DNA of 64,000 nucleotides, from NCBI RefSeq assembly GCF_016592595.1, contig NZ_AP012977.1:62001-126000 (forward strand), read 5' to 3'. The DNA comes from Abyssogena phaseoliformis symbiont OG214 (GTDB taxonomy: Bacteria; Pseudomonadota; Gammaproteobacteria; PS1; Pseudothioglobaceae). The position numbers and the translations under genes are program-made. Under the pieces are notes generated by a model. The model had not been told where the DNA came from. It saw nothing but the letters and a program-made list of their open reading frames with translations, and did no database searches. Position 1 is the first letter of the stretch. Every line of letters begins with the position of its first letter. Below are positions 59,849 to 63,986 of the stretch, in pieces.

Positions 59849-60253
59849 CTATACAACCCGTAAACCATTAAAGACAATACTGGTTAAACTAACCACGCCA
59901 ACAATTTTTCCATTATCTAAAACCGGGCAACGAGACAAGCCAAAATTTGTCAATAGTTTTGCGCAATAGCGAATGTCCATATCAGGTCGAACTGAGATGG
60001 CAGGTTTATTCATAATTTCATACACATTTACTCGGTCAAGGGCTCGGTCTTTGGCAATGACTTTAGAGGCAATGTCAGCAATCAGTACTACGCCGTATTC
60101 GTCATATTCATGAGATTTATCAACCAAAAGCATTTTAGTTTTCTTATATTGCATGTCATTAAGTGCATTTTGTACGGTGCATTTTGAATCAACAATATCG
60201 ACTTGTGTCCACATAACATCTTTTACTAGGGTTGGTGTTGTATTGTTAGTCAT
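59849..60253 (-). CDS. Two-CBS-domain protein
   Basis: The 134 residues form a CBS pair: 'VKDVMWTQVDIVDSKCTVQN', 'KMLLVDKSHEYDEYGVVLIA' and 'VYEIMNKPAISVRPDMDIRY' with 'LSRCPVLDNGKIVGVVSLTS'. CBS pairs bind adenosine nucleotides or SAM and regulate enzymes and transporters. Its start overlaps the stop of the PII-like gene, and it is the fourth gene of the DUF1538 operon, which suggests it senses energy state for the transporter. Confidence 0.9.
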   Translation of the reverse strand: MTNNTTPTLVKDVMWTQVDIVDSKCTVQNALNDMQYKKTKMLLVDKSHEYDEYGVVLIADIASKVIAKDRALDRVNVYEIMNKPAISVRPDMDIRYCAKLLTNFGLSRCPVLDNGKIVGVVSLTSIVFNGLRVV

Positions 60254-60603
60254 TATATTTTCTCCTCTATAGTGTGTTCTAGTGCATGAATTTGATGTAT
60301 GACACCAACAGCATCCTCGACATCGATTTGAAACGCAATCCCTTCCTGTGGGTTGGATTCAAAGTGACCTGTATCAGCAATTATTTCTAGTATATCCCTA
60401 GAAAGGTGCTGTTCTACGAGTAATAATAAGACGTCTCTAGGTGTTTCAATATTGAGTCCTAAAAATGTTTTGTTGTGCTTGAGACCCTCTCCTCGTGCTT
60501 GAGAAATAATGGTTGAGCCTGTGGCGCCTTTTGTTCTAGCAGCCTCAAGTATTTTGTCAGTTTTGTCAGAATCAACAAAAGCGATAATCAGTTTAAAGTG
60601 CAT
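60253..60603 (-). CDS. PII-like signalling protein
   Basis: The 116-residue protein has the ferredoxin-like PII layout: 'MHFKLIIAFVDSDKTDKILE', 'ARTKGATGSTIISQARGEG' and 'RDVLLLLVEQHLSRDILEII', with 'GIAFQIDVEDAVGV' near the end. The T-loop Tyr of classical GlnB is not seen. PII and PII-like proteins bind nucleotides and control transporters, often from the same operon. It lies 9 bp after a DUF1538 gene and 1 bp from the CBS gene. Confidence 0.88.
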   Translation of the reverse strand: MHFKLIIAFVDSDKTDKILEAARTKGATGSTIISQARGEGLKHNKTFLGLNIETPRDVLLLLVEQHLSRDILEIIADTGHFESNPQEGIAFQIDVEDAVGVIHQIHALEHTIEEKI

Positions 60604-60611
60604 AATCTCTC

Positions 60612-61352
60612 CTATTTTTTATCTTGTTTTAAAAATTTCATAATTTGTACGTAAGCCATTACACTCATAATGGGAAATAATGAGGCAAAGGCGATTAAAC
60701 CAAAACCATCAATGAGTGCAGAACGTCCATCAATTGTACTCGCAAGTCCAAGTCCAAGGGCTGCAACCAGTGGTACAGTTACGGTGGATGTGGTGACACC
60801 ACCAGAATCATAAGCAAGTGCAATAATATTTTTAGGTGCAAAATAGGTTTGTATCAGTACAATAACGTAGCCAGCAATAATAAAATAATGTAGTGGTAAT
60901 CCAGCTACAATGCGAAAACTGCCGATGGCAATACCCACAGCCACACCAACGGCAACTGTAATTCGTAAGGGCCATACTTTGATAAAACCACCAGAGACTT
61001 GATTGGCCTTAATGGCAACCGCTAATAAGGACGGTTCAGCAATGGTTGTGGCAAAACCAATGCTGGCTGCAAAGATATAAACCCAATAATAATCACCCCA
61101 GCCAAGTGTACCACTACCGATAAAACTACTTGATGTAAGCTGGTTTGCCATTAATTTTCCTAGGGGGAATAGTGCTTTTTCTAAGCCAACAATAAATAAA
61201 GTGAGTCCAATCCACACCAAAATAAACCCAATAATAATCTTCTTTAAATGTGGTATTTTTTGTCTAAGAATGATGATTTGAAAACCAAATAACACCACCG
61301 CAATAGGAGCCACATCCCAAAACATGCTGATAAAGTTATCCACTAGGCTCAT
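60612..61352 (-). CDS. DUF1538 membrane protein B (UmpB-like)
   Basis: The 246-residue membrane protein has about six or seven spans and the DUF1538 core '[20 protein letters not shown]', with '[20 protein letters not shown]'. It is a paralogue of the adjacent DUF1538 gene and overlaps it by 4 bp, so the pair likely forms a heteromer. From memory, a DUF1538 pair (UmpAB) has been reported as a Na+/H+ antiporter in Halomonas; transport of cations here is inferred from that only. Confidence 0.85.
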
Positions 61353-62080
61353 AGCAATATACCAAATAACATCACCGCAATAATGGGCAATAGTGAGGCA
61401 ATGGCAATCATGCCAAAGCCATCGGTTAACGGGTTTCTGCCACTAATTGAACTTGCCAAGCCAACGCCAAGTGCAGTGAGTAGCGGTACAGTAATGGTAC
61501 TAGTAGTCACACCACCCGAGTCATAAGCAATGCCAATGATAAAGTCTGGCGCAAAAAAAGTCGTAGCAATTACTAGGAGATAGCCGCCAATAATTAAGTA
61601 CTGTATTGGCCAACCTTTTAAAATTCTGAGTACGCCAATCACCACAGCTAGACCCACAGAGGTAGCCACAGTAAAGCGTAATGTTTGCGCATAACTATTG
61701 AGTTCTATTTGTGTATTGACAATGCCGCCCAGTTGAGCCACTTTAGCCGCTTCATTGGCCACCGCTATAAGAGCAGGTTCTGCTATTGTGGTGCCAAACC
61801 CTAAGGCAAAGGCAAATAAAAGCAACCAAAAAATTGACCCTTTTTTGACAAAACTGTAAGCCAGTGTTTCACCAATAGGAAACAGTCCTAGTTTGAGTCC
61901 GTAGACGAATAAAGTTAAACCCAATAAAACAAACCCTGTGCCAATTATAATATCCATTAAGTTAGGAATGCTTTGTTGAAGCACAACAATTTGGAAAAAA
62001 GCAATTACACCTATAATAGGGGCTAAATCTTTAGCACTGTCAGTTAGATTGTTAATAAACTGTCGAGCAGTTTTTTTCAT
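61349..62080 (-). CDS. DUF1538 membrane protein A (UmpA-like)
   Basis: The 243-residue membrane protein shares the '[20 protein letters not shown]' and '[20 protein letters not shown]' motifs with the next gene, at the same spacing. The two copies of the GGVTTST motif are the most conserved parts and are good candidates for the transport path. It is the first gene of the operon; the 124 bp to divergent pabC must hold both promoters. Confidence 0.85.
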
Positions 62081-62204: not shown

Positions 62205-63125
62205 ATGAATAGTGCCTTATTAATTAATGGGAAAAAACAAACCAAGCTCAATGTGCTTAATCGCCTTGTTCAATTTGGCGATGGTTTGTTTGAAACTTGT
62301 TTAATTGAAGATACTAGATTGTTATTTTGGTCCAAGCATTTTTCAAGGCTACAAAAAGGCTGTGATAAGTTAAAAATTCATCAAGTGAGTGAAGCTATTT
62401 GGCTTAAAGAAATTGCTAAAGCGCTTGGCATTTCCAAATTAGATCAGGCGGTGGTTAAAATCATACTTTCTCGTGGTGAGAGTACAAGAGGCTATGGCTA
62501 TGAGAAAAACATTAAGCCAACTCGTATTGTGATTGTTTCTCCTATGCCTGATTTGCCTTGGCAATATGAGTTGGGTGTGTGTTCTAGTGGCTACGTAAGT
62601 AATCAATTATTGTCTGAGATTAAGCATTGTAACCGCTTGGAGCAAATCCTTGCAAGGTCAGAATTGCAAGTGCAAGAGTGCATTATGTTGGATGAAAATT
62701 CTCAGGTCATTTCAGTGACTCAGGGTAATATTTTTGCCATTCGCAATCAGGTGATTTTTACACCCAGTTTGACTGATTGTGGTATTGAAGGCACTCGAAG
62801 ATCCGTGGTTTTTGATTTGGCACAAGCATTAGGTCTGCAACTTGAAACTTGTTCTTTGTCATTGACTGAACTACTTGAAGCGGATGAAGTATTTATTACT
62901 AATAGTGTGATGGGTATCAAGCCCGTGGCTAAAATTAATCAGCAACTATTTAGCCATCATCAAGTCACAAATCAATTAATCAGTGCTTTTGCTCGCTCTA
63001 AAAATAACCACTCATCATCAGTTTTGCTTAAATCAAAACGATCTTATTTGAAGCTTATTGTTGTATTTGTAGCAATTTTTTTGCTATTTTGGATGTATTG
63101 GGCAAATAATTTAGGTGTGTACTAA
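62205..63125 (+). CDS. pabC: Aminodeoxychorismate lyase domain with a C-terminal MltG-type membrane anchor
   Basis: The first 265 residues are a class IV PLP protein of the PabC type, which makes p-aminobenzoate for folate. It has QFGDGLFETCLIE, IILSRGESTRGYG, SEIKHCNRLEQILARSE (PLP Lys in the IKH stretch) and 'VTQGNIFAI'. The last 30 residues (SYLKLIVVFVAIFLLFWMYW) are the membrane anchor that begins MltG proteins. The frame ends at a TAA, but the same frame continues with MltG sequence, so this is the N-terminal part of a former PabC-MltG fusion. PabC activity may persist. Confidence 0.82.
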   Translation: MNSALLINGKKQTKLNVLNRLVQFGDGLFETCLIEDTRLLFWSKHFSRLQKGCDKLKIHQVSEAIWLKEIAKALGISKLDQAVVKIILSRGESTRGYGYEKNIKPTRIVIVSPMPDLPWQYELGVCSSGYVSNQLLSEIKHCNRLEQILARSELQVQECIMLDENSQVISVTQGNIFAIRNQVIFTPSLTDCGIEGTRRSVVFDLAQALGLQLETCSLSLTELLEADEVFITNSVMGIKPVAKINQQLFSHHQVTNQLISAFARSKNNHSSSVLLKSKRSYLKLIVVFVAIFLLFWMYWANNLGVY

Positions 63126-63986
63126 ATACCTTAAGGGACCAGCCTTTATTCAACTGCAAATAATCTAGAGCATCTGGGTTATATCAACTCTAGTATTTTT
63201 ATGCGGCTACTTGCCAAATCGTTCAATCTTGAGTTAAAAATTAAATCGGGTTATTATGATATTAATGCGGATATGAGCGTGATTAATTTGTTGAATCATT
63301 TTATATCTGCAAAAGTGGCGACCAGAAGTACCAGCTTAATTGAGGGCAATACTATTGATGACTATTATCAAAAGCTGGTTAATATGAGAGCGCTAAGATC
63401 TAGTTAAACTTTAACAGAAATCATGATTGAAATTAAGCATAGCCATCCGCATGATGGCTATTTTTGGCCAGATACTTATCAAATTAATTATGGTGATAGT
63501 ATGCTTAGTGTGTTTAAAAGAGCCCATCAGATAATGCGTCAAAAACTTGAACTTGCTTGGCGTAATAGGGCTGACGCTCTTCCCTTGGAAAATTCTAAAC
63601 AAGCGTTAGTACTTGCTTTTTTAATTGAAAAAGAAACGGCTAATGCACAAGAAAAACTCAAAATTGCAGGTGTATTCATTCGTCGCTTACAAAAAATCAT
63701 GCGCCTACAAACCGATCCAAGTGCGGTTTATGCACTGGGTGAACATTACCAAGAACCACTCAAAAAACGAGATTTAAAACTTAAAAGCCCTTACAATACC
63801 TATAGAAATAAAGGCTTGCTACCAGGGCCAATCTCCTCAGTAGGTGCGGATTCGTTATATGTAGCCAGGTACCCATACATGAGTGATGCGCTTTATTTTG
63901 TTGCTAAAAAGGACGGCACTCACGCTTTTGCAAATACCTATCAACAGCATAAAGACAATATCAACAAGTACCTAAAAAACCAATAA
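63126..63986 (+). pseudogene. mltG: mltG (endolytic murein transglycosylase) part of the fusion, interrupted by stops
   Basis: In the frame of pabC, after stops at 63123-63125 and 63132-63134, the reading continues 'LEHLGYINSSIFMRLLAKS' and 'LIEGNTIDDYYQKLVNM', then a stop at 63405-63407, then 'HPHDGYFWPDTYQINYGDS', 'ALVLAFLIEKETANAQEKLK' (catalytic Glu in EKET) and 'MRLQTDPSAVYALGEHYQ' with 'SPYNTYRNKGLLPGPISSVG', ending at 63986. These are the conserved MltG blocks in order with no frameshift. The last 187 codons are open and could be made only by re-initiation without a membrane anchor. Confidence 0.85.

Follow-up and report, generated by a model that had tools for sequence, protein, structure and literature searches.

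The genes for aminodeoxychorismate lyase (pabC) and for the endolytic transglycosylase MltG (mltG, or yceG) are separate and adjacent in other Gammaproteobacteria, and this adjacency is given among the hints of a link between folate synthesis and the cell wall in a 2025 paper (PMC11898565). Both proteins are also described as parts of larger assemblies. Indeed, PabC lies within a longer polypeptide in PabA-PabB-PabC fusions (PMC1971073, PMC4921024), and MltG of Streptococcus pneumoniae carries an added N-terminal cytoplasmic part, an extra domain whose function is given as not known in PMC8135044. The same source describes MltG as non-essential in Escherichia coli, which provides a precedent for its loss.

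Here, we describe a locus of the Abyssogena phaseoliformis symbiont OG214 contained in a window of 64,000 nucleotides (the whole stretch of DNA analysed, positions 62,001 to 126,000 of contig NZ_AP012977.1). The two families and their order are those of the separate pairs, with tmk next where seen. However, whereas a stop and a new start lie between the genes in 39 of the 39 pairs read in other Gammaproteobacteria, one frame runs through both in 35 of 83 genomes of the family Pseudothioglobaceae. Unlike the PabA-PabB-PabC fusions, which join steps of one cytoplasmic pathway, PabC-MltG would join two pathways across the membrane, and in contrast to pneumococcal MltG its cytoplasmic part represents an entire family of PLP enzymes from folate synthesis. 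No report of a PabC-MltG fusion was found in searches of open-licence PubMed Central papers, judged mostly from listings. PabC-MltG combines known families in a new architecture, which has been lost secondarily in OG214. We are highly confident that pabC and mltG became a single frame in this family, and that in OG214 the MltG half of the fusion has decayed and its PabC half has been kept.

The interrupted frame of OG214

Frame 1 of the forward strand, read from 62205, passes from PabC through a hydrophobic stretch into MltG sequence and ends at the stop 63984-63986, with internal TAA stops at 63123, 63132 and 63405. Its parts are as follows.

62205..63014, + strand: PabC (aminodeoxychorismate lyase) domain, codons 1-270; TIGR03461 238.0 bits; 0 of 55 family-invariant positions changed
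63015..63047, + strand: basic linker from PabC to the helix, from sequence and charge count; the model of an intact relative starts the helix at residue 281
63048..63104, + strand: predicted membrane helix, former MltG anchor, codons 282-300; 19-residue hydropathy 2.30 from residue 282
63104..63105, + strand: in-frame deletion of 15 nt near this site by comparison with the intact relative, from a 12-genome alignment; exact position aligner-dependent
63123..63125, + strand: first in-frame stop, TAA, closing a 306-codon PabC-helix frame
63126..63983, + strand: decayed body of MltG (endolytic transglycosylase), continuing the frame of PabC; YceG and TIGR00247 matches; 4 of 64 invariant positions changed
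63132..63134, + strand: second in-frame stop, TAA
63405..63407, + strand: third in-frame stop, TAA; in the alignment this codon is also a stop in genome G040
63984..63986, + strand: ancestral end of the fused frame

Pfam matches lie far above their cut-offs at both ends (Aminotran_4, 159.1 bits on 62205-63122; YceG, 180.9 bits on 63423-63983), and the middle piece at 63201-63404 scores 23.4 bits for YceG, under the cut-off of 32.4. Codons 308-593 hold two stops in the PabC frame versus 18 and 35 in the two other frames, so that the shared frame is not owing to chance. Frame reading, Pfam matches and stop counts thereby agree with the preliminary description, which had proposed an in-frame PabC-MltG interrupted by three stops. 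Its further statement that there is no indel holds for frameshifts, of which there are none, but one in-frame deletion of 15 nt is present at about codon 300 relative to the closest intact relative. Likewise, the statement that the MltG part lacks its own start codon holds for ATG, which is absent between PabC and the helix, but TTG occurs at 63024 and 63048, and the helix itself contains a TTG at 63081 and an ATG at 63093.

The PabC of OG214 scores well above the cut-off of the model for proteobacterial aminodeoxychorismate lyase (TIGR03461, 238.0 bits against 176.85) and, to judge from its substitutions, the domain is intact and under purifying selection. The MltG of OG214, in contrast, is not one open frame, its anchor and catalytic part being separated by three stops. 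The whole frame, with its three stops, is 86% identical to an intact fusion. PabC identity to the nearest named relatives, records of Ca. Ruthia, Ca. Ruthturnera and Ca. Vesicomyosocius, is 80-92%, and OG214 is placed in the vesicomyid clam symbiont clade.

The OG214 genome is a single contig of 1,542,177 bases. As read by eye from the sequence, tmk is the next gene, starting about 20 bases past 63986 and beyond the window. On the other side, the reverse strand at 59849-62080 carries two overlapping DUF1538 membrane-protein genes followed by P-II-like and CBS-domain genes, divergent from pabC; this looks like a regulated transporter cluster.

Distribution and ancestry of the fusion

The family sample comprised 83 genomes in 11 genera, and a search at order level comprised this same set. 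Of these genomes, 35 hold PabC, helix and MltG in one complete frame of about 600 codons, spread over genera g1 to g10 (10 of the 11 genera; three of these frames in g5). The closest intact copy is in the same genus as OG214: a 598-codon frame in Ca. Ruthturnera sp. Tsphm01 (CP125320.1; locus L005, genome G043). The uninterrupted frame that the preliminary description proposed looking for among relatives thus exists. The remaining genomes show several states:

— Partial fused frames were found in three genomes, broken further down in G003 and G077 and cut by a contig end in G082.

— Separate pabC and mltG genes occur in 23 genomes of genus g5, for which reason the fusion is not universal. In at least 22 of these rows (G033 among them), the two genes overlap, mltG starting in another frame 10 bases ahead of the pabC end.

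— Genus g8 has separate genes in four genomes, adjacent in G054 and G059 and on different contigs in G050 and G058, and no working MltG in two (G055 and G060). The adjacent pairs (loci L055 and L057) show TAATG or ATGA overlaps; MltG is gone in G055 (L106) and a remnant in G060 (L107).

— The frame is disrupted in 11 genomes of genus g1, that of OG214 (two re-split and nine broken), and five family genomes (G005, G022, G025, G069, G074) gave no good PabC match.

All 21 fused proteins that were scanned with Pfam exceed the cut-offs in both domains. In L005, the MltG part matches TIGR00247 over residues 286-597 (244.9 bits, cut-off 103.4), with the helix at 281-300 in the same frame. In all 38 fused sequences, partial ones included, the 20 residues preceding the helix are more positive than the 20 following it, and 19-residue hydropathy reaches at least 1.6 in 35, the remaining three ranging from 1.27 to 1.37. 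Given the hydrophobicity of the helix and the surplus of positive charge on its PabC side, the most probable topology of the intact protein is a cytoplasmic PabC and a periplasmic MltG. Codons 258-292 are devoid of ATG, GTG and TTG in eight of the 38 fused genes, and none of the 38 shows AGGA, GGAG or GAGG within 18 nt upstream of candidate starts; MltG thus appears to be without an independent start in the fused genes, for which the open frames predict a single polypeptide.

An AlphaFold2 model of L005 (21 sequences; mean pLDDT 80.2, pTM 0.47) predicts a helix at 281-300 between two halves whose relative placement is unreliable, and the MltG stretches 510-516 and 542-545 fall below 50 in pLDDT. 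All 50 matches listed in a structure search with this model are PabC-like aminotransferase folds; the MltG half was recognised from sequence matches (2r1f, 8yq7). The first of these PDB entries, 2r1f, is a solved structure of the MltG family and is labelled ‘Predicted aminodeoxychorismate lyase’, i.e. the activity of the adjacent or fused PabC.

Two trees were built, one on PabC (77 family rows and two outgroups, G033 left out) and one on PabC plus MltG (44 family rows and four outgroups). The second tree leaves out G003 and G077 and, owing to a motif filter, eight of 15 split genomes chosen for it, so that it contains three of the 23 split g5 genomes. In both, the split pairs of g1 and g8 are placed within fused clades. 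Relatives with separate genes, which the preliminary description had held to be contrary evidence, are present (23 genomes in g5, pairs in g8 and g1), but those of g1 and g8 are best read as re-splits, and the separate genes of g5 (three fused, 23 split genomes) may be either re-splits or the original state. The fusion was present in the ancestor of OG214's genus, and the single ancestral frame previously proposed is upheld. Genera g2 and g11, both fused, form the deepest family branches of the PabC-plus-MltG tree. This speaks for an origin of the fusion at the family's base or close to it, albeit with weak basal support and a long branch for G082.

Decay and re-splitting in the clam-symbiont genus

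All 12 genomes of g1 have an intact PabC, whereas the complete fusion persists in one (G043); it is re-split into two open genes in two genomes and broken in its MltG half in nine. When the 11 others are aligned to G043 as reference, the first 810 bases show neither indel nor stop. Beyond them, the lesions differ:

— In G036 and G041, one extra base near codon 271 splits the fusion, after which MltG has an open frame of 340 codons that includes a helix. These two loci (L020 and L021) hold a soluble PabC and an open MltG, with a TTG overlapping the pabC stop.

— In G039, the frame is shifted by one base. The extra bases of G036, G041 and G039 do not lie in long single-base runs at which slippage could rejoin the frames.

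— In G040, G044 and G037, large deletions cut the MltG part, and in G034, G035, G038 and G042 it is eroded, with a stop at reference codon 339 common to all four.

This pattern reads as about six inactivations (OG214, G039, G040, G044, G037 and the group of four) and one re-split. However, the stop at reference codon 406 is common to OG214 (63405-63407) and G040 (L017) and occurs in no other genome covering that codon, by convergence or exchange, so that the lesions of these two may not be fully independent.

Substitutions on the OG214 branch, scored at sites where G036 and G043 agree, differ between the two halves, with amino-acid to silent changes of 3 : 12 in PabC and 18 : 14 in MltG (Fisher p = 0.028); the linker and helix have four and none, too few to judge. 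The dN/dS of MltG on this branch is 0.33 and not 1, which suggests that its death was recent or partial. On the G036 branch, by contrast, the ratios are alike (MltG 6 : 14, PabC 7 : 14; p = 1.0), and after their common split G036 and G041 differ with a dN/dS of 0.13 in MltG and 0.28 in PabC. This purifying selection on MltG after the re-split indicates that MltG works unfused.

Invariant positions agree with this contrast. They were defined across 34 intact fusions of the 38 fused proteins (G043, G082, G003 and G077 not in the set), and OG214 has changed none of 55 in PabC and four of 64 in MltG, against one of 64 in the intact G043 and two of 64 in each of G036 and G041. K140 of PabC, which we take to be the PLP site, is invariant in all 38 fusions. 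In OG214, PabC is constrained while MltG degenerates.

In g1, FolP was found in 12 of 12 genomes and pabB-like matches, under the curated cut-off, in 12 of 12, and folate synthesis looks retained. Wall-synthesis families are also kept in all 12; the transpeptidase family PF00905 has one match in G034, G038 and G042 and a broken one in G035 (the four 1.0-Mb genomes), versus two in the larger genomes. Loss of the whole wall was considered as a cause of MltG loss and rejected, wall synthesis being trimmed and not gone. No FtsZ (PF00091) or tubulin match was found in any of the 12; since the intact G043 is among them, FtsZ loss does not track MltG loss. Reduced peptidoglycan pathways have been described in vesicomyid symbionts (PMC2642828), and their within-host populations are reported as nearly free of variation (PMC7473567), which fits fixed stops.

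Competing explanations and significance

We propose that pabC and mltG became one reading frame in this gammaproteobacterial family of marine sulfur bacteria. The fused protein would carry a PabC in the cytoplasm, where it makes para-aminobenzoate, and, beyond a basic linker and a single membrane helix, an MltG in the periplasm that cuts nascent glycan strands; joint expression and membrane placement in a fixed ratio would be its likeliest effect. PabC is a dimer. As a monomeric MltG has been reported (PMC11533991), a PabC dimer could perhaps also hold two MltG domains together. In OG214, the working product would be a PabC of 306 residues with a C-terminal helix. Presumably, a host-restricted cell can do without glycan trimming but still needs folate synthesis, which would explain the loss of MltG and the retention of PabC; as PabC lies 5', downstream lesions could end MltG without harming it.

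Why the two genes were joined at all is another matter. We give about even chances to a neutral merger, in which neighbouring frames were joined by chance and the link has no function beyond co-expression. At least two re-splits with both genes still open (G036/G041 and G054/G059) and the continued constraint on the re-split MltG of g1 (dN/dS 0.13 between G036 and G041) are consistent with it; persistence of the fusion through 10 of 11 genera, however, is long for a valueless link.

That PabC-MltG represents a selected transmembrane coupling of folate and wall, the dimer or substrate state of PabC setting the pairing or activity of the glycan-strand cutter, seems unlikely to us.

Quite unlikely too is selection on the truncated, membrane-tethered PabC itself, for example for para-aminobenzoate synthesis at the membrane. 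The tail of PabC is hydrophobic (1.92-2.73) in eight of the 11 disrupted g1 genomes, OG214 counted (it is cut short at residue 295 in G034), and a membrane-bound PabC is plausible in OG214 from the predicted helix. The helix is lost, however, in the three others (G036, G041 and G037), so that the tether is not constant across the clade and does not look required, and the few linker and helix changes on the OG214 branch lend it no constraint that could be judged.

Some MltG might still be made in OG214 by readthrough or re-entry into the frame, as the ATG at 63423 opens a 187-codon frame with the catalytic part. Yet this piece would have neither helix nor export signal, each of the three stops is a TAA and conserved MltG residues are changing, which makes such residual synthesis very improbable. 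It would be harder still to believe that the stops are sequencing or assembly errors in a whole fusion: the frame is otherwise open, but three stops occur together with a deletion, four changed invariant residues in MltG versus none in PabC and a shifted amino-acid to silent ratio, and eight further g1 genomes carry different lesions.

Ordinary neighbours do come close to such an arrangement outside the family. We searched the intact fusion against 369 genomes of the class (four in the family) and 398 of the phylum (one in the family), two overlapping samples. Among the matches listed, 20 of the 365 class genomes and 16 of the 397 phylum genomes beyond the family gave a full-length same-frame match. 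All of these contain one stop or more, and no fusion was found: the two genes are divided by a stop in every one of the 39 neighbouring pairs read (these 36 and G309, G251 and G422). Long open frames around mltG made G393, G422, G372, G445 and G376 candidates for further fusions. However, the frame of pabC differs from that of mltG in G393, G372 and G445, and in G422 the genes share a frame but have stops between them. In one family (f160), most of the genomes read have their stop at an identical PabC residue. Loss of a single stop would fuse such same-frame neighbours, and none of the 36 is fused. Common as same-frame pairs are, there is next to no chance that pabC and mltG were always separate in the OG214 lineage and share a frame by coincidence, since the stop of the 36 pairs precedes the helix (PabC residues 268-291, with a start nearby), whereas the first stop of OG214 follows it at codon 307, and intact fused frames in the same genus refute that reading.

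Folate and cell-wall genes were already known as neighbours; a fusion in 10 of 11 genera is a stronger hint of a link and a ready test case. If the coupling were true, folate supply and wall growth would be linked directly in one marine family, and its host-bound members would have ceased to need this link. In any case, the clam symbionts constitute natural experiments, in which the fusion whole, re-split or cut shows which half is needed and whether link or tether is of any importance.
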